Shown: one piece after another, positions 18,768-42,138 of the stretch
Layout: each line of letters begins with the position of its first letter
Numbering within the stretch: the first letter of the stretch is position 1
NCBI RefSeq assembly: GCF_036409155.1
Contig: NZ_JAZGLW010000001.1
Coordinates: 1,922,001 to 1,986,000, forward strand
DNA length: 64,000 bases
Direction: 5' to 3'
DNA from: Mycobacterium sp. 050128
GTDB lineage: Bacteria > Actinomycetota > Actinomycetes > Mycobacteriales > Mycobacteriaceae
Notes under the pieces: generated by a model
The model's database searches: none
Told to the model about the DNA's origin: nothing
Seen by the model: the letters and a program-made list of their open reading frames with translations, nothing else
Translations under genes and position numbers: made by a program

Positions 18768-18805
18768 GATTGAGTTCCCTTTGCGTTGAGTCGCTTGATA
18801 ATTGA

Positions 18806-20194: not shown

Positions 20195-20557
20195 GGTTTC
20201 CTCTCCGTTCTTGCCCACCGGCCCTCGGCCGGTGCTCTACGTTCCGTTCGGTGAAATACCGCTCTGCGCAGCCGATTACGCATCGCTGGGGGCGGTGTCG
20301 TTTCGAGCATGCGTTGTTCGTATCGGCATGTCGCTACCGCCACCGCCAAATGGCTATACCTGCCAGCCGGTAAATCGCCCGTGCTGCCACCGTTTCGATT
20401 GCCACTGACGGCGGAATGGGTGCTAGCGGGTACGGGGGAGTGCGGCTGTCATGACTCGATACGTCCCCGCCGGCGTCGATACTTTTCGATAGAGCGCTGC
20501 GAGCCCGCCTCGCAGCGACTTTCGCCGCCGAAGATGCTTTTGCTGAAGGAGTTCATG
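20195..20557. other. Intergenic region between the aldehyde dehydrogenase and DoxX genes
   Basis: This is a 363-base divergent promoter region with no convincing gene. A perfect 7-bp hairpin, CACCGGC/GCCGGTG with a 5-base loop, occupies 20216-20234 in the leader of the aldehyde dehydrogenase mRNA, just upstream of its ribosome site. An AAGGAG ribosome site for the DoxX gene is at 20546-20551. I could not place confident -10/-35 elements. Confidence 0.5.
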
Positions 20558-20908: not shown

Positions 20909-21071
20909 GCCGACACGAATTGTCCGCAATCACGCTGCACCGCAATGAGATTGACGTGGCCGCCCAGAGCGTCGTGGGTAACGCGTGCCGCGCAGGGCGC
21001 CGCCGCGGTGCAAACGAATGGGTGGCGTTAAGATTCGCGCTAGTCGGCGATTTTGAGGGCGGTGGTTGCCG

Positions 21072-22784: not shown

Positions 22785-22888
22785 TGAGTGGACAGCGCGA
22801 GCAGCCCGCTCGCCTCAGCGGCGGATCCCGGCCCTAAATCCTCTATGCGCCAACGCATTCCATCATCGAACAGATGCTGCTAATCGAC

Positions 22889-24139: not shown

Positions 24140-24445
24140 GACGTCATCATCGCATCGGGGTACGACAAATCTCGGCCCGCAAATCCGGCGGGGTGTGACT
24201 GCGATCATTCGCAAAGCGGGACAGCTTGATTGGCCGGCGCCAATGCGACGTCGCGGATTGAAAACCAGAATCCTGAATACCCGCTAGCAGGGTATAGCGA
24301 TTGCCGTCAGCGGCAACGACACGCATGCGCGGACGCGGCATCCTTAATGGCGAGTGCGGTACATGAACTGGCGCACCGGTGAAAGCCCCGACACCAGAAC
24401 CCTTTCGGGCCACGGTGCCAATCGATTCGAATCTAGGAGCGAGCA
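24140..24445. promoter_or_regulatory. Divergent regulatory region with four short palindromes upstream of the aromatic-cleavage operon
   Basis: No gene is seen in these 306 bases. Four perfect inverted repeats lie in a row: TGCGA-4-TCGCA (24200-24213), ATTGGC-4-GCCAAT (24229-24244), ATACCC-7-GGGTAT (24277-24295) and TTGCCG-4-CGGCAA (24301-24316). The dioxygenase has a ribosome site AGGAGCG ending about 6 bases before its ATG. The palindromes are candidates for regulator binding, though no regulator gene is adjacent. Confidence 0.5.
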
Positions 24446-25591: not shown

Positions 25592-25627
25592 CCGACACAA
25601 CCCATTTGAAAGAAAGGTTATTCGAAA

Positions 25628-26545
25628 ATGACCGTCTCTATCCTACGCACCGCTGACGCGTGGTGGGTGCAGACTCCCAACGGCGCGGCACGCATCCACA
25701 CCGGCGCGACCACCACCGCCGAACTGCTCGGCGACCGCCGGGCCATCGATGAGGCCGCCGGGTCGACCGGCACCGTGCCGGTGGCCAACCTCGAACTGCT
25801 CTCCCCGGTCACCACGCCGTGCCGCTTGGTGGCCCAGGCCACCAACTACGCCTCGCACGTGCGGGACGTCGGGCGTGACCCGGCCAAGACGCCGCTGACC
25901 TTCTTCCGCAAGGCTTCCGGTTCCATCACGGGTCCGTTCGGCGACATCGTCAAGCCGGCCCACGTGAAACTGCTCGACTACGAGCTGGAGATCGGTCTGC
26001 TGATCGGTCGCGAGATTCCGGTGGGCACCGAGGTGACCGAGGCCAACCTGGCCGAGTTCGTCCACGGCCTGCTGGTGACCAACGACGTGTCCGCCCGCGA
26101 CGTGCAGCTCACCAAAGCCCAGTTCTACGAATCGAAGTCGTACCCGACGTTCACCCCGATCGGCCCGGCGCTGGTCCTGGTCGACGCCGACGAACTCAAG
26201 CGCTTCGGCGACTTGCGGCTTCAGCTGCGGGTAAACGGCGAACTGCGTCAGAACATGGTGGTCGACGGCGACATGTTGTACCCGCCCGTCGAGGCGCTGC
26301 AGGCGCTGGCGAAGTTCCAGAAGCTGGAGGCTGGGGACATCGTGCTCACCGGCACCCCGGTCGGAACCGCGCTTACCGCGCGCGGAGTAGAGAACCCGCA
26401 CCAGACGGACTTGATGACATTCCTTGCCGCCCAGGCAACCAACCCCAACTATCTGCATCACGGCGACGTCGTGGAGGCCACGGTGGCCACCGATGACGAC
26501 GCCATCAACCTAGGCACGCAACGCAACAAGGTGGTCACCCGATGA
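25628..26545 (+). CDS. Fumarylacetoacetate hydrolase (FAH) family protein
   Basis: This 305-aa protein has the FAH core. KLLDYELEIGLLIGREI (about residue 116) provides the metal-binding Glu pair, VTNDVSARDVQ (about 150) the Asp, and GDIVLTGTPVGTA (about 238) the conserved C-terminal loop. Members hydrolyse, decarboxylate or isomerise ring-cleavage products, which fits its place right after the extradiol dioxygenase (36 bases apart). It overlaps the next gene by four bases (ATGA). The exact reaction cannot be read from sequence. Confidence 0.88.
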   Translation: MTVSILRTADAWWVQTPNGAARIHTGATTTAELLGDRRAIDEAAGSTGTVPVANLELLSPVTTPCRLVAQATNYASHVRDVGRDPAKTPLTFFRKASGSITGPFGDIVKPAHVKLLDYELEIGLLIGREIPVGTEVTEANLAEFVHGLLVTNDVSARDVQLTKAQFYESKSYPTFTPIGPALVLVDADELKRFGDLRLQLRVNGELRQNMVVDGDMLYPPVEALQALAKFQKLEAGDIVLTGTPVGTALTARGVENPHQTDLMTFLAAQATNPNYLHHGDVVEATVATDDDAINLGTQRNKVVTR

Positions 26546-28131
26546 ACGCAAGCAGGAACCCACAATCCGACCCGGTCACCCTGCCGGACTTCGTCCCCGT
26601 GGTCATCATCGGCGCCGGCCCGACCGGCGTCACCGCGGCCACCCTGCTCGGCCAGTTCGGAATCTCGTGTCTGGTACTCGACCGACATGAATCCGTCTAT
26701 CCCCTGCCGCGGGCGGTGCACGCAGACGACGAAATCTACCGCATTCTCGCCCGGCTGGGCGTCGCCGACGAGTTCGGCGCACACCGGCGGTCGGCGTTGG
26801 GACTTCGGTTGCTGGACAAGGACTTGCGTGTGCTGGCCGAGCTCAAGCGCAGCACCGAGCCCAGCGCCAACGGCTACCCGCAGATGAATATGTTCGACCA
26901 GCCCGAGTTGGAAGCGATGATGCGTACCAACCTCAAGCGCTACGACAACGTGGTGTTGCGGGGCGACGTGGAGGTCACCAGCGTGACCCAGAACAAGCCC
27001 GGCCGGGTTCGGGTCAGCTTCCTGGACCGCGTCCGAGGTGGGGAGCAGTCCGTCGAGGCAGCCTATGTCTTCGGCTGCGACGGCGCCAACAGCATTGTGC
27101 GCGCGTCGATCGGGTCGCAAATGTACGGGCTGCCGTTCCAACAGGACTGGGTGGTCATCGACGTCGACACCGACGCCGAACTCAACCAGTGGGAGGGGTG
27201 CCACCAACTGTGCAGCACCCAGCGCGCGGGCACCTACATGCGAGTCGGGCAGACCCGCTACCGCTGGGAGTTCCAGTTGCTCGACGGCGAGACGGCCGCG
27301 GACTACCAGACCATCGAGCACATCGAGCCGTTGATCGCGCCCTGGCTGGGTGAGATACCTGCGGAGGAGTTGCGCCTGGTTCGGGTCACCGCCTACACCT
27401 TCCGCGCGAAGGTGGCCAGTCGGTGGCGCGACCGTAATGTGTTCGTCCTCGGCGACGCCGCGCACCTCACGCCACCCTTCGTCGGCCAGGGCATGGCGGC
27501 GGGCCTTCGGGACGCGCTGAACCTGACCTGGAAGGTAGCCGGCGTGCTGGGTGAGAGCTTGCCCGAGAGTGTGTTAGACACCTACGAGCAGGAGCGCAAA
27601 GCCCATGCGGCCGCGATGATTTTGATGGCGGCGTCGGTGGGAGCGGCGATGACCGGCGGCGGCCGGCTGGGCGACCTGGTGCGTCAGGTGCTGTTCCCGC
27701 GGCTGGCGAGCTTCCGCCTGCCGGGCACCCGCACCAGCGTTGCCGACGGCGTGGCCCCTGGGCTGCACCGGTCGGAACTGGTGGTCAAGTCACGCATTCC
27801 GGGTCAGCTGGCCGGATCGCTGTGCCCCAACCCGATTCTGCGTGACGGCCTGCACCTCGATCAGATCGTCGGGAACCGATTCGCGGTGGTCACCTCCACG
27901 GCCCTGAGCCCGACGCAACAACAGGACCTCAGCAACCGGGGCGCCGCCGTTGTCGTCGTGACACCGGAAAGCCGGCTCGGGCGCTGGCTGAAGCAGGGCC
28001 GGGCGACCGCGGCAATTGTTCGACCCGATGGCGCAGTCATGCAGGCGGGCAAGGGTGTTCAGGCGCTCTGCGACGCTGTGCCGGCGTTCTCCGTGGGGCA
28101 GGGCTCCGACACCGAAAGTGAACGTCGATGA
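26542..28131 (+). CDS. FAD-dependent aromatic hydroxylase (MhpA-like)
   Basis: This 529-aa group A flavoprotein monooxygenase has an FAD dinucleotide motif VVIIGAGPTGVTAATLLG near residue 21, a DG motif VFGCDGANSIVRASIG near 177, and a GD motif FVLGDAAHLTPPFVGQGM near 302. It resembles 3-(3-hydroxyphenyl)propionate hydroxylase. It would use NAD(P)H and O2 to add a hydroxyl group to a phenolic substrate, making the diol for the dioxygenase two genes upstream. It overlaps both neighbours by four bases, so the genes are translationally coupled. Confidence 0.88.
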   Translation: MNASRNPQSDPVTLPDFVPVVIIGAGPTGVTAATLLGQFGISCLVLDRHESVYPLPRAVHADDEIYRILARLGVADEFGAHRRSALGLRLLDKDLRVLAELKRSTEPSANGYPQMNMFDQPELEAMMRTNLKRYDNVVLRGDVEVTSVTQNKPGRVRVSFLDRVRGGEQSVEAAYVFGCDGANSIVRASIGSQMYGLPFQQDWVVIDVDTDAELNQWEGCHQLCSTQRAGTYMRVGQTRYRWEFQLLDGETAADYQTIEHIEPLIAPWLGEIPAEELRLVRVTAYTFRAKVASRWRDRNVFVLGDAAHLTPPFVGQGMAAGLRDALNLTWKVAGVLGESLPESVLDTYEQERKAHAAAMILMAASVGAAMTGGGRLGDLVRQVLFPRLASFRLPGTRTSVADGVAPGLHRSELVVKSRIPGQLAGSLCPNPILRDGLHLDQIVGNRFAVVTSTALSPTQQQDLSNRGAAVVVVTPESRLGRWLKQGRATAAIVRPDGAVMQAGKGVQALCDAVPAFSVGQGSDTESERR

Positions 28132-29024
28132 TCGAGCTACTGGTGCTCAACGATGGCAAGCAGGAGATGCAGGCGGTGTCGCTGGACGGCACCCGGGTGC
28201 GGACCCTGATCGCCCAACTCGACGAGAGACCGGACGGCATCGTCGTCGACCAGTCACGCGGCCACGTCTACTGGACGAACATGGGCGCCCCCGACCCCGG
28301 GGGCGACCCGCGTTCGGAAACGGCCTACGCCCGCAACGGATCACTGGAACGCGCGGATCTCGACGGAGCCAACCGCGTCACCATCGTGCCGCGCGGGGCG
28401 TTCACCACCGGCAAACAGCTGGCCGCCGATTTCGACGCGGGTGTGCTGTATTGGTGCGACCGCGAGGGCATGCAGGTGCTGCGTTGTAACCTCGACGGCA
28501 GCGACCTGCGGCCGCTGGTCGTCACCGGGGTCGGCGACGCCGACGCGCAAACGATTGCCAACCACTGCGTCGGGATCGCCGTGGACCTGGAGCGCCAACT
28601 GCTGTACTGGACGCAGAAGGGCGCGCCAAAGGCGGGTGAGGGCAGGATCTTTCGAGCTCCACTCGACCTACCTGCGGGCATCAGCCCGCGACACCGCCCC
28701 GACGTCGAACTGCTGTGGAAGGACCTGCCGGAGCCGATCGACCTACATCTGTTCGATGGGCAAACGCTGGTGTGGACCGATCGCGGCGCCGAGCCGGACG
28801 GCAACACGCTCAACCGGGCGACGGTGCAGCCGGCCCTCGGTACGCCCGAGATCGTGTCGCGGGGATATCACGAGGCGATCGGCGTCGCCGCCATCTCCGA
28901 CTCGGAATTCTACGTCGGCGACCTGGGGGGCGGGATCCGGTACGTCAACCTCGACACCGGCGTCGACACCGAGCTGTCACACCTTGGCTTTGGCCTCACC
29001 GGCCTCGCGTTGGCGGATCTGTGA
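28128..29024 (+). CDS. YWTD-repeat beta-propeller protein
   Basis: This 298-aa protein has recurring LDL-receptor class B-like blades: HVYWTNMGAP near residue 46, VLYWCDREGMQ near 105, LLYWTQKGAP near 157 and LVWTDRGAE near 211. Regular ADLDG/CNLDG turns occur between blades. There is no signal peptide, so it is cytosolic. The gene is the last of the aromatic operon and overlaps the hydroxylase by four bases. Related six-bladed propellers include lactonases and SMP-30-like hydrolases, so a lactone or ring-product hydrolase role is possible but unproven. Confidence 0.8.
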   Translation: MIELLVLNDGKQEMQAVSLDGTRVRTLIAQLDERPDGIVVDQSRGHVYWTNMGAPDPGGDPRSETAYARNGSLERADLDGANRVTIVPRGAFTTGKQLAADFDAGVLYWCDREGMQVLRCNLDGSDLRPLVVTGVGDADAQTIANHCVGIAVDLERQLLYWTQKGAPKAGEGRIFRAPLDLPAGISPRHRPDVELLWKDLPEPIDLHLFDGQTLVWTDRGAEPDGNTLNRATVQPALGTPEIVSRGYHEAIGVAAISDSEFYVGDLGGGIRYVNLDTGVDTELSHLGFGLTGLALADL

Positions 29025-29055
29025 GCTCTGCGCGGTTGGGAGATGAGGTGGCCAC

Positions 29056-29646
29056 ATGAGCGCGTGGATTGACTTCTGGCACAACCTCACTCCCGGGCAG
29101 GGCACGCTGCTGGGCGGCGCATTCGTGTTGTGCGCGGGCGTCACCGCGTTCAGCACGGGCGCGCTCGACCGCAGGTCAGAACACAAGCGATTCCATTACG
29201 AGGAGATGAAGACGCTCTACGTGGACGCCCTGAGGATCGGCCGGGACCTGGAGATAGTCAAGGCGCTCCCGCCGGAGGTTCGCCGAGAAGTGCTCGTGGA
29301 CAAGGCCGATGCGATCGACAGGGTGATCAGCGAGCTCGCGGTGACCGGTAATTTTCAAACGGCCGATATTGCCATCGCGTATGCCTACCAGCAGTCCGTC
29401 CAACTTGGCGAATGGGTAAGGCAGGTCGAGGGTGACGGTGGCGCGACTGCACAGATCCAGAAGTGGCTGGACACTCTGCCGGAGCAACATCGGGCCGCGC
29501 TGCAGATCTACGAAGAGGTGACGGTCAATCGGCGCGACGTGGTGCAGGCGGTACGCAAAGAGTTGGGATTGTATGTGCCCGTGCTGTCGCGGTACCGACG
29601 CGCGCTGCGAGAAACGCTGAGAGCAGAGCGGTTTCCGCTCAACTGA
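29056..29646 (+). CDS. Membrane-anchored helical protein, unknown function
   Basis: This 196-aa protein has one N-terminal membrane helix (LLGGAFVLCAGVTAFSTGAL, residues about 18-37) followed by a long, charged, mostly helical cytosolic part (for example YEEMKTLYVDALRIGRDLEI). I do not recognise a family. It follows the aromatic operon by 31 bases on the same strand and may be cotranscribed, but nothing ties it to that pathway. Confidence 0.6.
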   Translation: MSAWIDFWHNLTPGQGTLLGGAFVLCAGVTAFSTGALDRRSEHKRFHYEEMKTLYVDALRIGRDLEIVKALPPEVRREVLVDKADAIDRVISELAVTGNFQTADIAIAYAYQQSVQLGEWVRQVEGDGGATAQIQKWLDTLPEQHRAALQIYEEVTVNRRDVVQAVRKELGLYVPVLSRYRRALRETLRAERFPLN

Positions 29647-29699
29647 CGCACGCCCGGAATTAGCGCACCCCCATCACATCGTGGCGCGCTTTAAGCGCC

Positions 29700-30803
29700 C
29701 TATCCGATGTACCTCTGGCCGGGAAGCACGTTCGGCCGCATCAGCGATCGCAGTGTCGTGCCCTCCGTCGCTGCCCCGCCTCGCTGGGCCGCGCCGGGTG
29801 CGAGGTTCGCCGGAGCGGTGGCCACGCCGAGCGGCGGCGATCCGCCGAGGGCGGTTTCACCGACGAGATTGACCGGTAATGCATGGGGCGCAGCGCCATT
29901 TGCCGATGCGAGCGACCCCCAGGCCGGCGGCGCCGACAAGGCCCCCACGGTGGCCGCACGGCCTACCCCGGCGGACACGGCGCCTTCGACCTGAACCGAG
30001 CCCGCCGAGGCAAGCGTGGTCGCCACCTTGCCGAGTCCGGCGCTGACGTCGGTCAACGCCGTCGCCGTCGAGTCGGCGCCGGAATTCGCCAAGGAGGCAG
30101 CCGACAGGATGATCGACGGGATCGTCGAGAACGCACTGATCCCGGAGTTGACGTGGTCAGGCGCCAGTGCACTGTTTATGTCGTCGACGATCTGCTGGAT
30201 AATCGTGGTGGCCGACGGCCCGGTGGAATTTCCGGCGGCATCGGTGACCGCGGCGCTTTGGGCTTCCAAACCGGCCGGGTTGGTGTTGTGTTGCGGCGCG
30301 GTGAACGGCGTCAGGGTAGTCGCGGCGGCCGATGACGCGGCATAACCGTACATGGCCGCCGCGTCCTGAGCCCACATCTCGGCATACTGAGCCTCGGTCG
30401 CCATGATGACCGCGGCGTTGATCCCCAAAAAATTGGTGGCAATGAGCGCGGCCAGCTGCGCCCGGTTGGCCGCGATCGCCGGCGGCGGCACCGTAGCGGA
30501 AAACGCCGTCTCGAAGGCGGATACGGCGCCCTGCGCCTGGTTGGCGGCTTGCTGTGCCTGGTCGGCTACGCCGCTCAACCAGGTGACGTAGGTTGTTGCT
30601 GCGGCAGCCATCGACAGTGACGACGGGCCACGCCAGCTTTGGGCGGTCAGCCCGGAGACCACCGCGGAGTACGACTGCGCGGCCGAGTAGAGGTCGGCCG
30701 CCAGCTTCTCCCACGCTGCCGCGGCGGCCACTAAAGACCCCGGCCCGGGGCCGGAATACATTCGCCCGCTGTTGATTTCTGGCGGCAAGGTCCCATAGTC
30801 CAT
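29700..30803 (-). CDS. PPE family protein
   Basis: This 367-aa PPE protein has an N-terminal domain that starts [20 protein letters not shown] with the namesake PPE at residues 7-9. The WxG turn SWRGPSS lies near residue 56, and [19 protein letters not shown] near 137 is the usual helix end. The C-terminal half contains [13 protein letters not shown], a variant of the GxxSVPxxW motif of the SVP subgroup. PPE proteins are exported by type VII (ESX) systems, usually with PE partners; no PE gene is adjacent. It is convergent with the hypothetical membrane protein. Confidence 0.93.
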
Positions 30804-31143
30804 GGCTTCGCCCCGAATCAGCGGGCCGTCGCAACGGCCAGCGCTTTAGTCCGTCTGATCACGAAACCCATTCCTGTTCTCGTAATAGCTAATTCGCGGG
30901 TGTGTCCGCGGGCGACCGAGGCGTGGTGCTTAGGTTGGAGCTCGACAACGAGGCTCAGTGAAAGTTTGCGGCTTCGCGGCTGCGGTGTCGTCAGGGCTAG
31001 CGGCCCATTTGCCTTCCCGCTAACGGTAATTCGTGCACCCTGGCTACCCGCACTACAGTCGCTTGGAGCGACGAGTTATTCAGCGCCAAACGAATTGGGC
31101 GCGGTTACTGGAGCGCCAATCCGTAAATGGCGCTAGCGGGCAT
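30804..31143. other. Intergenic region upstream of the PPE gene
   Basis: These 340 bases hold no gene I can support. They are less GC-rich than the surroundings, as expected for a promoter region serving the PPE gene on the minus strand. The 3' part, next to the receiver stop, contains scattered GGCGC/GCGCC half-palindromes but no convincing terminator. Confidence 0.4.
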
Positions 31144-31524
31144 CTAGCCGACAGTCCCCAGGGCGCCGCGGATCGCGGCACCTGACAAATCGGCTTTGGG
31201 GATAAATGCCAAAGCTGGGCTGTCGGAAACCAACTCGGCGAAGTCCTCTTCGGCGTGCGTGGAAATCAAGATGGTCCGAACCGATGTGCCGAGCCCATTT
31301 CGGTGCAGCTGGTCGACGAGTTCGAAGCCACTCTCATCCCCGAGATTGACATCGACGAGCGTCACGTCGGGCCGCAGCTCTTCGACACACTGCAAACCCT
31401 CCGCGAACGACGTTGCTACCGCAACCACGTTGATTCCCTCATGGCTGAGCAACCGTTTCGCCGCATCGAGGAAATCGCGATTGTCATCGACGATGATGCA
31501 CCGCGTTCGATCACTCGCTGTCAC
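31144..31524 (-). CDS. Stand-alone response-regulator receiver domain
   Basis: This 126-aa protein is a single CheY-like receiver. IIVDDNRDF gives the acidic pocket (Asp13-Asp14), LVDVNLGDES places the phospho-acceptor Asp at about 58, TILISTH gives the Thr/Ser switch, and FIPKADL the conserved Lys. There is no output domain. It may act as a phosphate sink or an adaptor for the GAF kinase or other kinases in this block, but no kinase is next to it. Confidence 0.85.
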   Translation of the reverse strand: MTASDRTRCIIVDDNRDFLDAAKRLLSHEGINVVAVATSFAEGLQCVEELRPDVTLVDVNLGDESGFELVDQLHRNGLGTSVRTILISTHAEEDFAELVSDSPALAFIPKADLSGAAIRGALGTVG

Positions 31525-31804
31525 GAATCCAGTCTGGGGTAGTCGCGAGTCCGTTGCATGGAGGCTAGCTGGAAACGTGTGGTGAGTCGGCAGGAATTCG
31601 TGCGCCGGTTAGCGGAAGCGTCCCGCGGAATGGTCTGGCCGTGCGGGCGGGGCATGGCCGAATACCGGCTACCCGGCAGAGGCTGACTGTGGTTGACGGG
31701 CAGTGCCGACGGCCGCCAGCGGGGCAGACGTGAGTCGGCGCGGGCGCAATCGTGAAGCGGGAAGCCGAAAGGCGCCGTTCACCCACCGACACGAGAGGTG
31801 CGCC

Positions 31805-32413
31805 ATGACCCTGCCCGCCGAATTGACTGCCGACGCGGAGCCCACGGCCGAGTTCGAACGCCGAGTCGCCCCCGTTCTTGGCGACCTGCACCGGCATGCG
31901 ATGCGGATGACCCGTCACCGCGCCGACGCCGAAGATCTTGTCCAGGACACAATGGCGAGCGCCTTCGCCGCCTTCGGTTCCTTGCGTCCCGACAGCACCA
32001 TCTCAGCGTGGTTGTACCGAATTCTGGTCAACACACACATCAGCAATTGCCGCAAAATGCGGCGCCGCCCGGCGTTGGTTTCGGCGGATCGCATGACGGA
32101 GCGGGACCTGATGGCGAGCTCCGCGCATTCGGCCGGGTACCTGCCCTCGGCGGAAGATCAAGCCCTCCAACGCCTCGGTGACCAGGATGTCATTGCCGCG
32201 CTGCGCACCCTGCCCGAACTGCTCCGCATCACGGTGTACTACGCGGATGTCGAAGGGCTGGGGTGCAAGGAAATCGCGTTGCTGATGGACGCGCCGGTCG
32301 GAACCGTCGGGTCGCGCCTGCATCGGGGGCGCCGCCAGCTACGGGGGCTGCTGGCCGACCGACGCGGGCGCGAAGCCTGCTATGCTGCACCAGGTTTGGC
32401 GCAAACGGCATGA
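31805..32413 (+). CDS. ECF sigma factor, SigH-like, without adjacent anti-sigma gene
   Basis: This 202-aa protein has sigma region 2 (DAEDLVQDTMASAF near residue 41, AWLYRILVNTHISNCRK near 68-84) and region 4 (ITVYYADVEGLGCKEIALLM near 142, GTVGSRLHRGRRQLRGLLAD near 167). The wording is very close to mycobacterial SigH. However, SigH is normally followed by the zinc anti-sigma RshA, and here the gene is followed by a convergent NarL regulator instead. It is therefore an orphan paralog. I used the ATG at 31805. Target promoters would be expected to resemble GGAAT-GTT sites; I found none convincing nearby. Confidence 0.88.
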   Translation: MTLPAELTADAEPTAEFERRVAPVLGDLHRHAMRMTRHRADAEDLVQDTMASAFAAFGSLRPDSTISAWLYRILVNTHISNCRKMRRRPALVSADRMTERDLMASSAHSAGYLPSAEDQALQRLGDQDVIAALRTLPELLRITVYYADVEGLGCKEIALLMDAPVGTVGSRLHRGRRQLRGLLADRRGREACYAAPGLAQTA

Positions 32414-32453
32414 CGCCGCGGTCGGGAGTTCTAGGTCCTTGACCGCCCGGGAC

Positions 32454-33146
32454 TCAGCGGGAGTCAAGAAACGTGATGACCGCGCGGACACGACGATGGT
32501 CGTCGTCGGTCTCCGGCAAGCCCAGTTTGGTGAGAATGCTGCGGACATGTTTCTCCACAGTGCCCTCGGTCACCCATAGCCGGCGCGCGATGCCGGCATT
32601 GGATCGGCCCTCCGCCATCAACCCCAGCACTTCGAGTTCACGCGGCGACAAGGCGGCCAGCGGATCGTCTCTTCGCCGACCCGACACCAGCTCCTGCACC
32701 ACCGCCGGATCGATCACCGATGCGCCCTTGGCGATCCGCCGCAGCGTGTCGACGAAATCGGCCACATCGGTCACCCGACTCTTGAGCAGATACCCGATAC
32801 CGCGACCGCTGGCCAGCAGTTCCATCGCATGCTCGACGTCGACGTGGGCCGATAGCACCAGGATCCCCGTGTCGGGTAGCTCCTGGTGGATCACCCGGGC
32901 GGCCTCGAGCCCCTCGGTCGTGTGGGTGGGCGGCATACGAATGTCAACGACCACCACGTCGGGACTGGTCTTGCGCACCAGCGCGAGTAGCTCGACGGCA
33001 TTGCCGACCTGGCCGACCACGGTAAAGCCCGACCGCTCGAGCAGGCTGGCGACCCCTTCTCGCAGCAGAGCTTCGTCGTCGGCGAGCACCGCGCGCAGCG
33101 AGGCCGGTGCCATGTCGGCCGCGGCAGTGCTGGATTCCGTCGTCAA
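32454..33146 (-). CDS. NarL/LuxR-family response regulator
   Basis: This 230-aa protein has an N-terminal receiver (VLADDEALLREGV near residue 20; phospho-Asp at about 68 in VVDIRMPP; Lys in YLLKSRV) and a C-terminal LuxR helix-turn-helix (LSPRELEVLGLMAEGRSN near residue 167, then TEGTVEKHVRSILTKLGL). I favour the TTG at 33146 because a GGGAG ribosome site lies about 9 bases ahead. An internal ATG at 33113 would remove 11 poorly conserved residues. It could be the partner of the GAF-GAF kinase at 21072, as HisKA_3 kinases use this class. Confidence 0.87.
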   Translation of the reverse strand: MTTESSTAAADMAPASLRAVLADDEALLREGVASLLERSGFTVVGQVGNAVELLALVRKTSPDVVVVDIRMPPTHTTEGLEAARVIHQELPDTGILVLSAHVDVEHAMELLASGRGIGYLLKSRVTDVADFVDTLRRIAKGASVIDPAVVQELVSGRRRDDPLAALSPRELEVLGLMAEGRSNAGIARRLWVTEGTVEKHVRSILTKLGLPETDDDHRRVRAVITFLDSR

Positions 33147-33353
33147 CGCCTGGTACTCCCGCCTTGCGTGCCTGAGGAATCATCTTGCACCGCGATATGG
33201 GTGATTTCCAGCGATCAACGATGACAGCTGGTCGCCGCGGCGACGACCCGGCGTTTTGCAAACAGCATCGTGAGGTCGCAGACGTGCACTGGACGGTCTA
33301 ACTCGGCGAGCACCCGCCCGATCGTTCTTGGGTCGTGTACGCCCGGCGCGGGC

Positions 33354-33379
33354 GGTTTGCGTGCGCGGGCCGGGGGTAC
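33354..33379 (+). promoter_or_regulatory. Sigma-F-like promoter of the LLM oxidoreductase gene
   Basis: GGTTT (33354-33358), a 15-base spacer and GGGTAC (33374-33379) match the mycobacterial SigF pattern GTTT-N15-17-GGGTA(T). The ATG at 33390 lies 10 bases after the -10 element, so the transcript would be leaderless or nearly so. The promoter match is seen in sequence; use by SigF is inference. Confidence 0.5.
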
Positions 33380-35799: not shown

Positions 35800-36005
35800 C
35801 CGGGATACGGGTACGTGTGGTCCCCAAGGGGCCCATCCTGCTACCGGGTCCGGTGCGTATCGAAGTCGACGACGGCCGGGTGGTCGAATCCGACCGGTTC
35901 ATGGTGGCCATCTGCACCTGTGGGCGCAGTCGCGAATACCCGTTGTGCGACACCAGCCACCGGCGCTGCCGGCACGTCGAAGGCGTTGGCAAGAAGCCTA
36001 ATTGA
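35796..36005 (+). CDS. CDGSH-type iron-sulfur protein
   Basis: This 69-aa protein carries a single CDGSH [2Fe-2S] motif, C-x-C-x2-S-x3-P-x-C-D-x-S-H. The ligands are Cys40, Cys42, Cys51 and His55 (ICTCGRSREYPLCDTSHR). The usual Gly after Asp is Thr here. There is no membrane anchor. Such clusters sense redox state or transfer electrons or clusters. The start overlaps the methyltransferase stop (ATGA), and its last 8 bases overlap the convergent diiron-oxygenase-like gene. That arrangement makes the three genes look like one functional set. Confidence 0.9.
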   Translation: MTGIRVRVVPKGPILLPGPVRIEVDDGRVVESDRFMVAICTCGRSREYPLCDTSHRRCRHVEGVGKKPN

Positions 36006-37029
36006 GCGGTCGCCGCAACGAGGTCTGGTCCTGCTTCCAGGACGTCATGATCGTATCGGCGAGGCGATCCTCGACCGCAGCGAGTGCCCGCATCCCGAAA
36101 ACGATGTCGCGGTCCAGCTCCGGTTCGCGGGCCACCAGATCGCCCACCACATCGAAGCGCACCACCTGTTCGTGCACGGCGTCGGCCTCGACGTGTTCGC
36201 GGTAGAACGCGACGCACGCCGGGGGTGCGCCCATCCGCTCGAGCGCCTGGGCCATCCGTCGGGAACCTGGCGACGACGTGATCTCCGTGGCAGCGAAATG
36301 TCCGATCGCCGCGCCGCGCAGCCGCCGGTGCAGGCCGAACAATGACATCAGGTTGACCACCGCAAGCGCTTCGGCGGGCACGGCGTCCAGGTATCCCAGG
36401 TAGGTCGTGTCCAGATCGGCCGCCGCCAGCAGGTCCGAGAAGAGCTGTTGGTGTGCTCGGTGGCCCTGCCCGGCGCCGTACTCGTCGTATTCGATCGCCA
36501 CGAATGCCGCCTTGGCGCCGCCCGTCAGCCGGGGGATGGCCCAGGCATGCGGATCCCCCTCCTTGAGGTGGTACATCGATCGATGCACGAAGTATTCGCG
36601 CATCTGTTGCCAGGTCCCGCTGTCGCGCAGATAGTAGGACGGCCCGGTGCCGTCGACGGGTTCGACGGAAATCGCGTCCATCTCCGCCGTCGCGGTCCGG
36701 TCGGGATCGATCGGGCCGACATCGCGACGCACACCCGCCAGAAAGGCACGTTCGAGTTCGGCGCGCAGTCGCAGCAGGTCGGGATTCCACTCCCAGGTGG
36801 GATCCACGCCCGCAAAACCCCGGTAGTGCAGCTCGTAGCACATGCACAGCGCCAGCTGCAGGTCGAGGCCGTAGGGATCCGAATCGCCCACCGATGAGCC
36901 GATCCGCGCAAGGTGGTCTACGGACGGCGGCCCGGCCAGCGCCCGATGTACGGCCGTCGACAGTGGTCCATGTGCCGCCGGTAGGGCGGGTTCGATGCTG
37001 ATCGACGCGCGAGTCACGTCGTTGGACAT
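35998..37029 (-). CDS. Haem-oxygenase-like diiron (HDO-type) iron-containing redox enzyme
   Basis: This 343-aa all-helical protein belongs to the 'iron-containing redox enzyme' family. Candidate metal ligands form the HDO pattern: Glu145 and His149 in MREYFVHRS, Glu180/Asp182 in VAIEYDEYGAG, His244 in GHFAATE, and His279, Asp283 and His286 in REHVEADAVHEQ. Related enzymes use O2 and two irons to oxidise amino-acid-derived substrates. I chose the ATG at 37029; an upstream GTG at 37074 would overlap rsbU. It follows rsbU by 34 bases and may be the last gene of the stressosome operon. Its end overlaps the convergent CDGSH gene. Confidence 0.82.
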   Translation of the reverse strand: MSNDVTRASISIEPALPAAHGPLSTAVHRALAGPPSVDHLARIGSSVGDSDPYGLDLQLALCMCYELHYRGFAGVDPTWEWNPDLLRLRAELERAFLAGVRRDVGPIDPDRTATAEMDAISVEPVDGTGPSYYLRDSGTWQQMREYFVHRSMYHLKEGDPHAWAIPRLTGGAKAAFVAIEYDEYGAGQGHRAHQQLFSDLLAAADLDTTYLGYLDAVPAEALAVVNLMSLFGLHRRLRGAAIGHFAATEITSSPGSRRMAQALERMGAPPACVAFYREHVEADAVHEQVVRFDVVGDLVAREPELDRDIVFGMRALAAVEDRLADTIMTSWKQDQTSLRRPLN

Positions 37030-37063
37030 ACCACGAACGGGGTCATGGCAAACGGTGCCCTTT

Positions 37064-39301
37064 CTAGCGGCCACCGGACCAGTCGTCGGCGCCGGCGGGT
37101 GCTGCCGGTAGCCGGAAGGCGATGTCCACGACGGTTCCGGTTGAGCTGCTGTCGATCTCCATCATGTCACTGATCGCCCTCATCAGGATCAGGCCGCGTC
37201 CGCTGTTGCCCGGGTTGATCGCCGGCGGTTTCCAGGAACCGCGGTCCGTGATGCGGGCACGGACTTGGCCGTCCACGGTTTTGACTTCGAGCAGGGTTGT
37301 CCCGAGGCCGTGTCCGCGGTAGGCGTGCTCGACGCAGTTGGTGCATCCCTCGTTGACGACCAGCACGATGTCGTCGATGAGTTCGTCCGGGACATCAGCG
37401 GCCCTGAGCCAGTCGGCCAGCCGATGCCGGATGCTGGCCAATTCGTCTGCGATAGCGTGTGTTTCTATCCGAAGCGGTGCCAGCTGGTGCCGGTAGATCA
37501 CCATCGCCACATCGTCGTCGTATCCTGCCACCGGCGCCAGCTCGCGCAGCACCGCATCGGCGACGGCGTCCAACGGCAACGTCCTTGTCTCCACCAAAAC
37601 GTCTGCGGCGCGGGTTATTCCGTCGTCAAGCGACTCGTGTTTGCGTTCCACCAATCCGTCGGTGAACACCATCAGCGTCGAGCCGGACGGCAGCCGCCGG
37701 GAAATCTGCGGGCGAGGGTCGTCTCGAAGGACCGCGAGTGGCACCGACCGGGCATCGGTGAGCACCGTCGTGCCCGACGGCCCGGCGAGCACCGCGGGCA
37801 TATGACCGGCATTGCTGTACTCCAAAACGCCGGATTCGGTATCCAGGATCGCGAGAAAAACAGTGGTGCAGTACGCATTCGGAATGAGCGAGGCCGCCAG
37901 GTCGAGTTGTTCGAGCACCGCTGCGGGACCGGCGCCGTTGATCAATAGCGCGCGCGCCGAGCTGCGCAACTGACCCATGATCGCCGCGGCGGGCAGGCCC
38001 CGCCCCACGCAGTCGCCGACGACGATGCCGATGCGGTGATCGCCGATCGACAGCACGTCGTACCAGTCGCCGCCGATCTCCAATGGCGGGACGGCGGGCT
38101 CGTAGCGCATCACGAATCCCGGCGGCGACTCGATGGGCGGCAACATCGCGCGCTGCAACGTCAGCGATGTCTCACGGGCACTCTCGAATTGGCGCACATG
38201 CTGCATGGCCAGACTCAGATGACCGATCAGCACCGTGATCAACAGCCGATCCTCCGCACTGAGCCACCGTGGTGCGCCGAGCTCCAGCCACAGGGCAAGG
38301 TCTCCGGTCCCGGAGAGCACCGCGACCAATCCCTGCGCCTTGCCCGGCTTATTAGGGCGCTCAACGGTTTTGGCCGTCAGCGGCAGCTGATGGCGGGCGT
38401 CCTGAAAGGTGTCGCGCAACCAGGGATCCAGTCCGCGCCAGGTTGTCACGGCGGGCTCGCCCGCCACCTGAACCGTCGGTTCGCCGTCGCCGGCCGGCCA
38501 GGTCACGGCGATCACCCGCTGGACGCCGATCGCCGTGCGGCATTCGTCGAGGGTGATCGCCAGTAGCTCGGCAACGCTTTTGGCTACCGCCACGGCGGTG
38601 GCCAGCCGCAAGACCGCACTCTCGCGAGCCGCGAATGCCCGTTCCGCGGTGACGTCGCGAACCGTGCCCACGTAGACCGCTTGGGCGGTTTCGGATTCCT
38701 TGACGGCATTGATGCTGACCATCACCCAGGCCAGATGCCCGTCCCGATGCCGAATCGGTGTCTCGTACTGGGTGCCGCCTTCGCTGCGGACCCGGGATTG
38801 GTGTTCTCGCGCGGTCTTCTTGTCGACCAGCCATGGGTGTGGCCACCGGTAGGGCAAGCCCTCGGTGGGGTAGCCGAGGATCTCGATGAAGGCGTTGTTC
38901 ACCTCGATGATCGAGCCCTCATGATCGGCGACGAAGAAGCCTTCCTGCAACGAATTCACAAGAGCGGTACGGAATTTGTCTCGGTCGGCGAGTCCGTCGG
39001 CCCGGGCTCGCTGCTCCGCGTAGCGCTTGGTGCCGTCCAGGAATCCCCGAGTTGCGACGTCGAGCGGCGCCAGGGTCTGCAGCAGGAATTCCAGCGCGAC
39101 CGGTGCATCGGTTTGAATGTCCGTGGACAGCTCGAGGACCAGGCGCACATGTTGCTCGATGATGTCGAGCATGCTGACTTGTTCCTGCAGTGCCCGCCGG
39201 CCAAGTTCGTGGCCGACGGCCAGGATGCTGTCGTCGCGCGCCTCCAGATAGGTGCGCAGCGCGGCGAGATACTGGGCGTGAAAGTCGTCTGCATCGGTCA
39301 T
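37064..39301 (-). CDS. RsbU-type PP2C phosphatase fused to an RsbW-like kinase domain
   Basis: This 745-aa multidomain output protein has an RsbU/RsbRD-like helical N-terminus (about 1-95), a PAS domain (about 112-220, SLQEGFFVADHEGSIIEVNN), a GAF-like domain (about 228-375), and a SpoIIE/PP2C phosphatase. The metal sites are GGDWYD (Asp412), GDCVGRG (Asp430), FTDGLVE (Asp548) and DDDVAMV (about 596). A C-terminal HATPase_c domain (NEGCTNCVEHAY near 650, DRGSW near 687, GRGLILMRAI near 701) follows. It can therefore in principle both dephosphorylate and phosphorylate STAS antagonists. It is the fifth gene of the stressosome operon and overlaps rsbX by four bases. Confidence 0.88.
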   Translation of the reverse strand: MTDADDFHAQYLAALRTYLEARDDSILAVGHELGRRALQEQVSMLDIIEQHVRLVLELSTDIQTDAPVALEFLLQTLAPLDVATRGFLDGTKRYAEQRARADGLADRDKFRTALVNSLQEGFFVADHEGSIIEVNNAFIEILGYPTEGLPYRWPHPWLVDKKTAREHQSRVRSEGGTQYETPIRHRDGHLAWVMVSINAVKESETAQAVYVGTVRDVTAERAFAARESAVLRLATAVAVAKSVAELLAITLDECRTAIGVQRVIAVTWPAGDGEPTVQVAGEPAVTTWRGLDPWLRDTFQDARHQLPLTAKTVERPNKPGKAQGLVAVLSGTGDLALWLELGAPRWLSAEDRLLITVLIGHLSLAMQHVRQFESARETSLTLQRAMLPPIESPPGFVMRYEPAVPPLEIGGDWYDVLSIGDHRIGIVVGDCVGRGLPAAAIMGQLRSSARALLINGAGPAAVLEQLDLAASLIPNAYCTTVFLAILDTESGVLEYSNAGHMPAVLAGPSGTTVLTDARSVPLAVLRDDPRPQISRRLPSGSTLMVFTDGLVERKHESLDDGITRAADVLVETRTLPLDAVADAVLRELAPVAGYDDDVAMVIYRHQLAPLRIETHAIADELASIRHRLADWLRAADVPDELIDDIVLVVNEGCTNCVEHAYRGHGLGTTLLEVKTVDGQVRARITDRGSWKPPAINPGNSGRGLILMRAISDMMEIDSSSTGTVVDIAFRLPAAPAGADDWSGGR

Positions 39302-39924
39302 GTGGAGGCTCCCCTGTGACGCACGGCGAGCACCATAGCGTCGTCCGTCTCCTTCGCATGCTTACCCAGAATGTGGTCGGCGATCACCATGGCCGACGCG
39401 GCGAAGTCGATGTGGTCCAGGTGATCCTCGGCGATGCCATCGCTGGCCAGCACGATCAGGTCGCCGACTCGCAGTGAAACCACCTGAGCAGGCCTGATTT
39501 CCGGGATCCGATAGCCGACGATGCCGGCGGCAAGGCGTGCACTGGACCGAATGTGGACGCCGGTCACATCTTTGGAGACGAGGTGGGCGCTGACATTTCC
39601 CACCCCGGTCCAGGTGAGCGTTTTCGCCTCGAAATCCACTCGCGCCAACGTCATGGCGACTCCTCTGGTCCCACCCAACACACGGTGGCACAGCTGGATC
39701 AGGACCTCGAGTCGTTCGCCGGGGGTCCGCTGGACCGCGTCGACGGCACGCATCGCGGCGCTGGCGGCAGCAGGGCCGTGGCCGAGGCCGTCGACCACAC
39801 CGAACAGAGCGGCGTTGTTATCGACGGCGACCGCGATTTTTCGGTCGCCGCTGGTGTTTTCGCCGGGTAGTGGGCGCCCCGCGTTCGCCCACTCGAAAGG
39901 CCCTAGTCGACCGTTTTCACGCAC
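39298..39924 (-). CDS. RsbX-type PP2C phosphatase (stressosome resetting)
   Basis: This 208-aa single SpoIIE/PP2C domain has VVDGLGHGPAAASAA near residue 43 and LIVLASDGIAEDHLD near 157 as metal-binding signatures, plus GVGNVSAHL between them. Bacillus RsbX dephosphorylates RsbR and RsbS to reset the stressosome, and the position here, between rsbT and rsbU, supports the same role. It overlaps rsbT by eight bases and rsbU by four. Confidence 0.87.
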   Translation of the reverse strand: MRENGRLGPFEWANAGRPLPGENTSGDRKIAVAVDNNAALFGVVDGLGHGPAAASAAMRAVDAVQRTPGERLEVLIQLCHRVLGGTRGVAMTLARVDFEAKTLTWTGVGNVSAHLVSKDVTGVHIRSSARLAAGIVGYRIPEIRPAQVVSLRVGDLIVLASDGIAEDHLDHIDFAASAMVIADHILGKHAKETDDAMVLAVRHRGAST

Positions 39925-40327
39925 GATCGGGAACCCATTTCCACATTTCGATGACTGTTCCCTTGCCGAGTGCGGATTCCACGATCAGCCGGTCCATCAA
40001 ACGGCGTGCCCCGGGCAGGCCCATGCCCAGCCCGCGACCCGTCGAGTAACCGTCCTCCATCGCCCGCTCGACGTCGGCGATGCCCGGGCCGTCATCCTCG
40101 GCGCGAACGACCAGTGCCTGGCGGCCGTCGCGATCCCCGACCGTGACCCGCACCGCGCCGCGGCCCGCGTAGCTGGTGATGTTTCGTGCGATTTCGGAGA
40201 TCGCCGTCGAGATCATCGTGACGTCGGTCAGCGAAAACCCGAGTTCTAGGGCGAGCTGGTGTCCGGCTTTGCGGGCTTCGACGATGTCGTCGGGATTATT
40301 GATAGCGACGATGATGTCACACGCCAC
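39917..40327 (-). CDS. RsbT-type switch serine kinase
   Basis: This 136-aa HATPase-fold kinase has the N box STAISEIARNITSYAGRG (about 40-57), G1 EDDGPGIADVE (about 77) and G2 GRGLGMGLPGARRLMD (about 97). RsbT phosphorylates RsbR and RsbS, leaves the stressosome and activates RsbU. It starts with the GTG at 40327 and overlaps the end of rsbS by 11 bases. All ATP-site residues I can check are present. Confidence 0.9.
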   Translation of the reverse strand: MACDIIVAINNPDDIVEARKAGHQLALELGFSLTDVTMISTAISEIARNITSYAGRGAVRVTVGDRDGRQALVVRAEDDGPGIADVERAMEDGYSTGRGLGMGLPGARRLMDRLIVESALGKGTVIEMWKWVPDRA

Positions 40328-40706
40328 CGTCGCGCCCGATCGTTGATTTACCCAGCCCCCGTGAGCGATTCAGCAGCGCGATGCCTTCTTCGAGGTCCAG
40401 GGCGGTGTTCATATCGTCGAAGGTCAGCCCCAGTTGGACCATCGCGAACGCGACCTCCGGGGACAGGCCCACGATCACGGTCTCGGCGCCGCGCAGCCGG
40501 GTCATGTGAGCGATCGTCCGCAGTGAGCGGGCCGCAAAGGAATCCATCACGTCGATCGCGGTGACGTCGACGATGATGCCCTGGGCCCGGAACCGGCTGA
40601 CCCGCTCCATCAGGTCGTATCGAAGTCGCTCGGTGTCGGAGTCGGACAGGGCCGCCTGCACCGTGGCGATCAGGATCGAGCCCTGCTTCAGGATGGGTAC
40701 TGGCAT
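40317..40706 (-). CDS. RsbS stressosome STAS scaffold
   Basis: This 129-aa single STAS protein forms the stressosome core with RsbR. IIVDVTAIDVMDSFAARS places the phospho-acceptor Ser at residue 56, equivalent to Ser59 of Bacillus RsbS. The second Bacillus site, Thr86, appears to be Ala88 here (SPEVAFAMVQLGL). It lies 22 bases after rsbR and overlaps rsbT. This gene pair is diagnostic for a stressosome rather than for an ordinary anti-anti-sigma system. Confidence 0.9.
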   Translation of the reverse strand: MPVPILKQGSILIATVQAALSDSDTERLRYDLMERVSRFRAQGIIVDVTAIDVMDSFAARSLRTIAHMTRLRGAETVIVGLSPEVAFAMVQLGLTFDDMNTALDLEEGIALLNRSRGLGKSTIGRDGGV

Positions 40707-40728
40707 GCGCTGCCCGTGTCAGTTGTGC

Positions 40729-41610
40729 TCACCCCGGCTGCTCGCCGGTGCGCGTGACTTCATAGCCGAGCAGGCGCTCGGCTTCTTCGATACCACCCTG
40801 CAGGTCACCGACGGCGTTCATCTTCGACAGATCCAGGCCGATCGTCACCAGCGTCAGAGCGATCTCCGAGGACAAACCGGTGATGATCACGCTGGCGCCC
40901 ATCAGGCCGGACGCGTCGACCGTCTGCACCAGGTGGTTGGCCACGGTGGAGTCGATGGTCGGCACACCGGTGATGTCGATGACGACGACTTTGGCGCGGT
41001 TGGCGCGGATGGCTCTGAGCAGCTGCTCGGTAACCTGGCGGGCGCGCTGGCTGTCCAGGACACCGATGATCGGCAGAATCAGCAACTGTTCGCGCACCTG
41101 CAGCACCGGCGTGGACAGCTCGCGGATCGCCTCCTGCTGCTGGCGGATGATGCGCTCGCGCTCTTGCACGAAGGACACGCCCACGGTGTTGGCGATACGG
41201 TTGGCGGCCGGTTCATAGGCGTCCAGCACCCGGTTCAGCATCTCGAACTCGGTTTGATACTTCTCGAACAGCGAGCGTGCCAGCACGTCACGCAGCAGCA
41301 GCACGATGCCGAGGACCTCGTCGGTTTCCACCCCACGCGGGATGATCCGCTCGGACAGATCGCGGGCGTAGGCCTGCAGCGCCTCGACGCTACCGGTTTC
41401 GAGCACCTCGACGTAGTTGTCGTAGACGGCGGTCGCCTCGGAGAAAAGTTCCTCCGGCGTCATCGCGGTCAGCAGTTCGGCCTCGGCGATTCTTCGGGCC
41501 CACTCCTCGCGTAGAACCGTGCGATTTTGCCGTAGGTGCTGCACTAGCTGGGGAAGCAGACCTTCGCTCGAGACGCTCGCGGTGGTGCCGGTGCTGCTGG
41601 AATCTGACAT
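40729..41610 (-). CDS. RsbR stressosome sensor with non-haem-globin-like N-terminus
   Basis: This 293-aa protein has a helical N-terminal sensor domain (about 1-150; it looks like the RsbR globin-type fold), a linker helix (RERIIRQQQEAIRELSTP) and a C-terminal STAS domain from about residue 165. In the STAS part, VPTIDSTVANH puts Ser221 at the place of Bacillus RsbRA Thr171, and EIALTLVTIGLDL puts Thr253 at Thr205. Both phospho-sites are therefore chemically competent. It starts with an ATG preceded by GGGAGG and is the first gene of the operon. Only one RsbR paralog is in the window. Confidence 0.9.
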   Translation of the reverse strand: MSDSSSTGTTASVSSEGLLPQLVQHLRQNRTVLREEWARRIAEAELLTAMTPEELFSEATAVYDNYVEVLETGSVEALQAYARDLSERIIPRGVETDEVLGIVLLLRDVLARSLFEKYQTEFEMLNRVLDAYEPAANRIANTVGVSFVQERERIIRQQQEAIRELSTPVLQVREQLLILPIIGVLDSQRARQVTEQLLRAIRANRAKVVVIDITGVPTIDSTVANHLVQTVDASGLMGASVIITGLSSEIALTLVTIGLDLSKMNAVGDLQGGIEEAERLLGYEVTRTGEQPG

Positions 41611-41769
41611 CTGGCCTCCCGTGTGCCGCGTCGCGCTCCGCAGTGCGCAGGTTCTACGGGGAGACTAGCCTGGCTTGACGTGGGGCAGGTGTTGAGGTCT
41701 TCTTCTTCTCGCAGTTCGCACGGCAGGTTAGGCTTGCACCACACTTAAGGCCCGGACGAAGGATCGCCA

Positions 41770-42138
41770 TTGTCAGCTCCTGATTCGATCACCACGTTGG
41801 TTGCGGACCACGATGGGGTTTCCGTGGTCAGTGTCAGCGGTGAAATCGATTTGGTCACCGCTCCGGCCCTCGAGCAAGCCATCGGTGCAGTCGTTGCGGA
41901 AGGGCCGACCGCGCTGGTCATCGACCTGTCCGCGGTGGAGTTCCTCGGCTCGGTCGGGCTCAAGATCCTCGCGGCGACCTACGAGAAACTCGGCAAGTCG
42001 GCGGAGTTCGGGGTGGTCGCGCGTGGTCCGGCGACCCGGCGCCCGATCCATCTGACCGGCCTGGACAAGACGTTCCCTCTGTATCCGACGCTCGACGACG
42101 CGTTGACCGCCGTGCGAGACGACAAACTCAACCACTGA
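41770..42138 (+). CDS. rsfB: RsfB anti-anti-sigma factor (STAS)
   Basis: This 122-aa STAS protein is closely similar to M. tuberculosis RsfB, as I remember that sequence. In that species it binds the anti-sigma UsfX (RsbW) to free SigF. VIDLSAVEFLGSVGLKIL places the regulatory Ser at residue 61. The TTG at 41770 (LSAPDSIT) is preferred because it aligns with the known MSAPDSIT start and follows AAGGA. It is divergent from the stressosome operon with 159 bases between, which makes it an obvious substrate candidate for RsbU. Confidence 0.93.
   Translation: MSAPDSITTLVADHDGVSVVSVSGEIDLVTAPALEQAIGAVVAEGPTALVIDLSAVEFLGSVGLKILAATYEKLGKSAEFGVVARGPATRRPIHLTGLDKTFPLYPTLDDALTAVRDDKLNH

Follow-up and report, generated by a model that had tools for sequence, protein, structure and literature searches.

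The mycobacterial stressosome module was reportedly first described by Pettersson in 2013, and the locus analysed here, from Mycobacterium sp. 050128, is another copy of that already known operon. It lies in a 64,000-nucleotide stretch, referred to below as the window (positions 1922001-1986000 of contig C1 in a genome of 6.73 Mb), and comprises rsbR, rsbS, rsbT, rsbX and rsbUW, which face the gene of the anti-anti-sigma factor RsfB. Most slow-growing mycobacteria are reported to have the arrangement rsbR-S-T-X-rsbUW, and interaction and co-localisation data exist for M. marinum, where the same genes rsbR, rsbS, rsbT, rsbX, rsbUW and rsbV are found together with one RsbR, and where a STAS-dependent interaction was shown (PMC8115616). 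The name rsfB has 0 occurrences in the text of that paper, and the sections of it that were consulted say nothing of the domain composition of RsbUW, the loss of RsbU_N, or loci with RsbT only; the open-access literature searched yielded no account of these RsbUW details.

The RsfB kinase of M. smegmatis is RsbW2, whose gene lies beside rsfB; the anti-sigma factor RsbW1 does not phosphorylate RsfB (PMC7693655), and the PP2C protein RsfR removes the phosphate (PMC10950880). This RsfB-RsbW2-RsfR/RsfS system resembles the present locus in that the phosphorylation of RsfB is set there, and would be set here, by a kinase and a PP2C phosphatase whose genes lie near rsfB (PMC7693655, PMC10950880). 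There, however, the kinase and phosphatase are separate proteins with the phosphatase under a two-component system, whereas here a single protein stands behind a stressosome. Rv1364c, like RsbUW, has PP2C and kinase domains in one chain, and a PAS domain is common to both, but it carries its own C-terminal STAS domain (PMC10950880); the STAS partner of RsbUW would be the divergently encoded RsfB, and RsbUW has an RsbU_N domain in front.

The Bacillus subtilis and Listeria pathways through RsbU, RsbV and RsbW to SigB share with this locus the RsbR, RsbS, RsbX and RsbU_N families and the positions of the phosphosites, with RsbT corresponding by gene order. In Listeria the phosphosites are T175 and T209 of RsbR and S56 of RsbS (PMC12154155); in Bacillus RsbU_N is part of the surface that binds RsbT, which also binds the linker leading to the PP2C domain (PMC12143880). 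The Mycobacterium sp. 050128 system differs in that its RsbR phosphosites are serines rather than threonines, that RsbU_N and PP2C of its output protein are separated by PAS and GAF-like domains, with a kinase following at the C-terminus, and that its anti-sigma factor UsfX is without kinase motifs.

Organization of the stressosome locus

The module genes are transcribed leftwards and rsfB rightwards (Table 1), and Pfam families, matches to solved structures and the positions of the open reading frames (ORFs) all agree with the first-pass annotation of a complete stressosome module facing rsfB. Five family matches in the order of the known operon lie far beyond what chance would produce. The same annotation had the five minus-strand genes overlapping; the five ORFs stand, as do the overlaps at three of the four junctions (rsbS-rsbT 11 bp, rsbT-rsbX 8 bp, rsbX-rsbUW 4 bp), but rsbR and rsbS are separated by a 22-bp gap. 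From sequence comparison we read the locus, with a probability of about 0.6, as a stressosome operon that feeds RsfB through an RsbUW with opposing kinase and phosphatase activities and that ends at UsfX and SigF. The new details are that the output protein joins a phosphatase to a kinase, and that some relatives lacking RsbT have also lost its probable docking domain.

Table 1. Positions in the window of the stressosome genes, their encoded domains and the codons of putative phosphorylation sites.
Feature	Position	Strand	Description
rsbR, stressosome sensor	40729..41610	-	293 aa; helical N-terminal domain and C-terminal STAS
rsbS, stressosome scaffold	40317..40706	-	129 aa; STAS
rsbT, switch kinase	39917..40327	-	136 aa; GHKL ATPase
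rsbX, PP2C phosphatase	39298..39924	-	208 aa; Pfam SpoIIE
rsbUW, output protein	37064..39301	-	745 aa; RsbU_N - PAS - GAF-like - PP2C - kinase
rsfB, anti-anti-sigma factor	41770..42138	+	122 aa; TTG start; STAS
rsbR-rsfB divergent region	41611..41769		159 bp
RsbR Ser187 codon	41050..41052	-	aligns with Listeria T175; S in 60/62 rows, N in 1, gap in 1
RsbR Ser221 codon	40948..40950	-	aligns with Listeria T209; S in 61/62 rows, gap in 1
RsbS Ser56 codon, expected RsbT phosphorylation site	40539..40541	-	aligns with Listeria S56; S in 68/68 rows
RsfB Ser61 codon, proposed phosphorylation site	41950..41952	+	S in 79/79 rows
RsbU_N domain, predicted RsbT docking domain	39053..39274	-	residues 10-83; PF08673, E 5e-18
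PAS domain	38642..38971	-	residues 111-220; PAS families, TIGR00229
GAF-like domain, putative	38267..38575	-	residues 243-345; alpha/beta order of the structure model and phytochrome matches (aligned ranges not shown)
PP2C (SpoIIE) domain	37487..38041	-	residues 421-605 (Pfam stretch); PF07228, E 1.7e-40
GHKL kinase domain, proposed RsfB kinase	37121..37447	-	residues 619-727; N/G1/G2 boxes; PF13581, E 4.4e-24

The stressosome proteins

RsbR matches the Pfam STAS family (expectation value, E, 6.5e-15), with RsbRD_N falling under its cut-off, and in a search of solved structures it matches Listeria RsbR at E 5e-30. Its AlphaFold 2 (AF2) model (predicted local distance difference test score, pLDDT, 73.5) has the Listeria stressosome 7b0u as top match (E 9.7e-11) and matches a globin sensor weakly; His25 is the sole histidine in residues 1-160, and heme-oxygen sensing by RsbR is not proposed. 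The phosphosites had been placed at RsbR Ser221 and Thr253 and at RsbS Ser56. Ser221 and RsbS Ser56 align with the Listeria sites and are retained, RsbS Ser56 being invariant, but Thr253, although conserved (61/62 rows), is not a known site, and the second RsbR position is Ser187 (Table 1). The residue counts over 62 to 79 rows exclude 6 RsbUW and 7 RsbR stretches that run past the natural stop codon, and the gap row in the RsbR counts is most likely a relic in M. neglectum (locus L070, see below).

RsbS matches Pfam STAS (E 1.1e-13) and Listeria RsbS 6qcm (E 1.2e-24). RsbT matches HATPase_c (E 4.4e-11), and the counted residues of what we take to be its N and G boxes are invariant in 70/70 rows; its own best match in the PDB is SpoIIAB, so that the name RsbT rests on gene order and on co-occurrence with RsbS. 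RsbX matches Pfam SpoIIE (E 3.6e-14), the Moorella structure 3zt9 (E 1.2e-16) and Bacillus RsbX 3w40 (E 1.1e-8), and is expected to reset RsbR and RsbS. An RsbR with a STAS domain and a helical N-terminus, an RsbS with its serine, and an rsbT beside rsbS with intact boxes are features expected of a stressosome module of the RsbRST type.

The output protein RsbUW

The output protein had been called an RsbU. It does have the RsbU_N and PP2C domains of that family, but it is not a plain RsbU, having also a C-terminal kinase domain, and is named RsbUW here. Pfam identifies RsbU_N, PAS, SpoIIE and HATPase_c_2 domains and gives no GAF match in the protein. The closest solved relative is the RsbU-RsbW region of Rv1364c (3ke6, E 3.9e-38), which is also the best Foldseek match of the AF2 model (pLDDT 79.5). 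Aspartates 430, 548 and 595-597 of the PP2C domain, plus 412 just before the Pfam stretch, are present in 74/74 rows and presumably bind metal. In the kinase domain E651, N655, D686 and G688 are found in 74/74 rows and G701-G703 in 28/28, so that a GHKL kinase with intact N, G1 and G2 boxes is encoded by a gene facing rsfB, as in kinases of the RsbW2 type. RsbUW would work like an RsfB kinase of the RsbW2 type but, grouping apart from those kinases in a tree, does not belong to them. The best 120 of 2198 matches in a protein search with RsbUW are all at least 77% identical and are uninformative on architecture beyond mycobacteria.

A paralog of RsbUW in the same genome (41% identity over residues 108-732) forms the end of an ORF of 1378 residues (L101, 1918-6054) whose front looks histidine-kinase-like by eye; a small STAS-like gene (L101, 6054-6380) follows that ORF directly. 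It also encodes an Rv1364c-like protein (L104) with phosphatase, kinase and STAS in one chain.

RsfB, UsfX and SigF

The divergent neighbour is a true rsfB, as annotated. Its product matches STAS (E 2.5e-21) and, from residue 1, the RsfB chain of the UsfX complex 8ih8 (E 6.3e-53); an unnamed anti-sigma factor antagonist, 4qtp, is matched still better (E 1.4e-66). Its Ser61 is probably the counterpart of M. smegmatis Ser63 (PMC7693655), judging from where it falls in the STAS alignment. The genome has counterparts of all three of RsfB, UsfX and SigF, with RsfB and UsfX matching the two chains of 8ih8 and usfX adjoining sigF. UsfX has an arginine at the N-box asparagine position and no G1 motif and is unlikely to act as a kinase; this is as expected, because M. 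smegmatis RsbW1 does not phosphorylate RsfB (PMC7693655). A UsfX without kinase motifs, together with the kinase boxes kept in RsbUW, leads us to propose that RsbUW supplies both the kinase and the phosphatase of RsfB. An ORF at 2717-3139 of the sigF locus (L102) aligns with STAS proteins; it lies on the opposite strand to sigF, and the two ORFs share 30 bases at the sigF 3' end.

Proposed mechanism

By analogy with Bacillus and Listeria, RsbR and RsbS would form a core that holds RsbT, which upon stress would phosphorylate RsbS Ser56 and RsbR Ser187 and Ser221 and then leave, with RsbX resetting the core. Comparison suggests that free RsbT would dock on the RsbU_N domain of RsbUW, and that RsbUW would act on the divergently encoded RsfB. 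Because UsfX has lost its kinase motifs, the kinase domain of RsbUW is the candidate for keeping RsfB Ser61 phosphorylated and RsfB inactive, and the PP2C domain, activated by RsbT with the PAS/GAF-like module perhaps contributing, would remove the phosphate. Bare RsfB would then bind UsfX and free SigF. The chain from stressosome through RsbT, output phosphatase, RsfB and UsfX to SigF, already suggested in the first-pass annotation, remains the best-supported reading, given the 8ih8 matches of RsfB and UsfX, the adjacency of usfX and sigF, and the divergent rsfB; with a second SigF-like sigma factor in the genome, SigF is only a candidate for its sole target, and the kinase domain had been missed.

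A more specific version is put forward tentatively, at somewhat less than even odds. RsbUW would be a single two-way RsfB enzyme, kinase and phosphatase, with RsbT setting its direction and the PAS/GAF-like module as a second input; within each of the sets {RsbR, RsbS, RsbX}, {RsbT, RsbU_N} and {RsbUW, RsfB} the members would mostly be retained or disappear together; and RsbT would outlive the stressosome in M. elephantis and M. neglectum and run with RsbUW alone. This gives a proposal, open to testing, on the identity of the RsfB kinase in mycobacteria that have RsbUW and no RsbW2 beside rsfB. The natural deletions described below (no rsbRSTX, rsbT only, RsbU_N gone) allow tests of the stressosome-to-SigF wiring across related species.

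Distribution and loss of the module

Relatives were compared at 80 loci, the best 80 of 574 relatives from a scan with RsbUW and not a random sample, the closest RsbUW proteins among them being those of M. ahvazicum (94% identity) and M. genavense (93%). Upstream of rsbUW, 68 of the 80 loci have rsbR-S-T-X, two have rsbT only and nine have none of these genes; the remaining one (L046) is set aside, since its contig starts inside rsbX. A divergent rsfB is the neighbour in 79/80 loci, L046 being the missing one, at gaps of 130-491 bp and including all nine loci without rsbRSTX. With rsfB divergent in 79/80 and rsbRSTX present in 68/80, rsfB and rsbUW are a constant pair and rsbRSTX is a variable cassette.

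A survey of 118 genomes of the genus found RsbT in 45 and RsbS in 44, all 44 within those 45; the module is published for most slow-growing species. In the genome with RsbT and no RsbS (G081) the match coincides in position with that in the genome of M. elephantis locus L068, and RsbS was searched for in that genome and not found. RsbT was also sought in all nine genomes of the loci without it and is absent at E 1e-6, and we do not regard these loci as assembly gaps, although completeness values are not given. Fifteen genomes without RsbT were examined, and 11 of them yielded RsfB matches at E 1e-12, at 21 places in all; the homologs are only 42-52% identical to RsfB. Twelve of these 21 regions, from these 11 genomes, were read. 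In 11 of the regions the gene adjoining the rsfB homolog carries a kinase, which is a separate protein in 10 and part of an RsbUW without RsbU_N in one (L122); the last region (L127) has none.

An intact rsbT beside rsbUW, without rsbR, rsbS or rsbX, is present in M. elephantis (L068, 9533-9949) and M. neglectum (L070, 9518-9931). The M. neglectum locus bears a scar, with parts of the rsbR start and the last rsbS codons before the intact rsbT and nothing left of the remainder of either gene. A search for RsbR elsewhere in both RsbT-only genomes and in five of the nine others found only the relic beside rsbT in M. neglectum. RsbT of this locus is 90% identical in protein to that of L069 and 64% identical at fourfold sites, which indicates selection on it, although part of this may predate the loss. 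A tree of RsbUW (34 rows, midpoint root) has module-bearing rows in deep branches and needs five or six state changes. Several losses appear to fit this better than one late gain, as PMC8115616 suggests, would, and gains are possible, this being one protein tree with a midpoint root. The tree rows, like the 15 loci used below for conservation and the 19 pairs used for domain identity, were chosen by hand.

Among these 15 loci, the eight most distant show identities of 90-96% for RsbR, 76-92% for RsbS, 74-82% for RsbT, 53-61% for RsbX, 57-65% for RsbUW and 50-59% for RsfB; conservation is highest for RsbR in seven of the eight and for RsbS in one (L064). Fourfold sites in the same loci are 57-64% identical in rsbR and 42-52% in rsbUW, against saturation expectations of ~39% and ~36%. 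By these comparisons the sensor RsbR is the most constrained part of the system, with some extra constraint at the DNA level, and the tighter retention of RsbR than of the output in distant loci speaks for one fixed signal or partner.

Loss of RsbT and of RsbU_N

If RsbT acts through RsbU_N as in Bacillus, loss of RsbT should free RsbU_N to decay. Five of the nine RsbT-less loci have RsbU_N deleted (L082, L084-L087), while the domain is decayed in three (L077, L080, L083) and normal in one (L048); it is retained in both loci that keep rsbT alone. The three decayed domains are 40-43% identical to that of the window with PP2C at 60-62%, and in 11 RsbT-bearing loci with PP2C at 62-68% RsbU_N is 52-68% identical. 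Pairwise, the RsbT-less L077 and L083 are 49% identical in RsbU_N and 93% in PP2C and kinase, compared with 83% and 82% in RsbU_N and PP2C for L073 and L076, which keep the module, and 82% and 86% for L069 (full module) and L070 (RsbT only). The link between loss of RsbT and loss or decay of RsbU_N is suggestive.

Evaluation of the proposed wiring

Several observations count against the chain to SigF or against its proposed steps. PAS and GAF-like domains lie between RsbU_N and PP2C, where in Bacillus RsbT binds the linker. The RsbUW kinases do not group with RsbW2-type kinases in a tree, the two forming separate groups (89/88), and the stand-alone kinase L105 of the same genome is nearer to the RsbW2 kinases. 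SigF-like promoter sites, sought with one mismatch or less, are not found in the rsbR-rsfB gap and number 7 in the window compared with ~5.8 expected (both strands, 20 first-order random sequences), which is no excess. A second SigB/F/G-family sigma factor (L103, ~3330-4007; C2:327829-328506) is 58% identical to SigF over 250 residues, and the genome has six further STAS matches, one of them beside the RsbUW paralog, so that SigF is the likely but perhaps not the sole final target. The normal RsbU_N of L048 also runs counter to co-loss, and fits a recent loss of RsbT, as would be expected. RsbU_N is variable in module-bearing pairs too, at 62-64% with PP2C at 79-83% in four of them (L018-L033, L014-L033, L050-L054, L064-L067) and 72% with PP2C at 83% in a fifth, so the three decayed loci are only somewhat beyond the usual range; their RsbU_N/PP2C ratios are 0.66-0.71, and that of the lowest module-bearing locus is 0.78. 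The well-supported branches of the 34-row tree offer three independent contrasts, which at our own cut-off of 0.8 come out as two in favour and one undecided. The eight loci of lost or decayed RsbU_N count as two of the three, and with three contrasts no significance is possible.

Other wirings would account for parts of the same evidence. RsbUW could be just a phosphatase acting on phosphorylated RsfB, as in the classical chain, with its kinase domain idle or structural and another kinase such as L105 phosphorylating RsfB. L105 keeps the N-box Glu and Asn and a DxG and groups nearer the RsbW2 kinases, and RsbW2 is reported to be the sole RsfB kinase in M. smegmatis (PMC7693655), but the counted N, G1 and G2 box residues of the RsbUW kinase are invariant across relatives and the operon facing rsfB carries RsbUW, not L105; we consider this alternative unlikely. 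It is distinctly improbable that the kinase-like domain is instead an anti-sigma factor, holding SigF or the second SigF-like sigma factor until RsfB releases it: the conservation of its active site points to catalysis, and UsfX, encoded beside sigF, matches the solved anti-SigF, even though the domain matches the fold of Bacillus RsbW (6m37), Rv1364c is reported to bind SigF in vitro (PMC10950880), and none of 19 HATPase_c_2 matches lies near the second SigF-family gene.

The module might also steer another STAS protein or an output other than SigF, its place beside rsfB being a matter of history. Stressosomes elsewhere in bacteria drive other outputs, and the further STAS matches, with the one beside the RsbUW paralog, would offer other partners, but rsfB stays the divergent neighbour in 79/80 loci at gaps no longer than 130-491 bp, even in the nine without rsbRSTX, and we give this wiring little credence. 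Recent horizontal spread of rsbRSTX among mycobacteria, which would leave the distribution saying nothing on wiring, is judged very improbable. The patchy distribution (45/118 genomes), RsbR proteins 91-97% identical to that of the window in 22 rows of alignment A2, and rsbR fourfold sites that in most of the distant pairs exceed those of rsbUW by 10-15 points of identity would be in its favour. However, fourfold sites of rsbR only 57-64% identical alongside 90-96% protein identity argue for old divergence under strong selection, so that from synonymous sites recent transfer is an unlikely source of the high RsbR identity, and the rsbR/rsbS deletion scar in M. neglectum points to loss. The stressosome operon acting on RsfB through a bifunctional RsbUW remains the reading we prefer.

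Neighbouring genes

A Haem_oxygenas_2-type gene (35998-37074) lies directly behind rsbUW and is in the same place in 59/80 relatives; it was not found behind rsbUW in 21/80 loci, among them L064, L067-L077 and L082-L087, and for that reason was dropped as a candidate part of the circuit. No tRNA was found in the searched stretch 15000-45000. A match to the yqeY family (16536-16985) is ~25 kb from rsfB in this window. The ~16.4 kb at 16985-33355, between yqeY and the module side, are absent at the same point in the three relatives compared, M. ahvazicum (L012), M. genavense (L009) and M. montefiorense (L010), and encode a thiamine pyrophosphate (TPP) enzyme, an aldehyde dehydrogenase, a GAF-GAF histidine kinase, a DUF222-HNH gene, a fumarylacetoacetate (FAA) hydrolase, a flavin adenine dinucleotide (FAD)-binding enzyme and a PPE gene.

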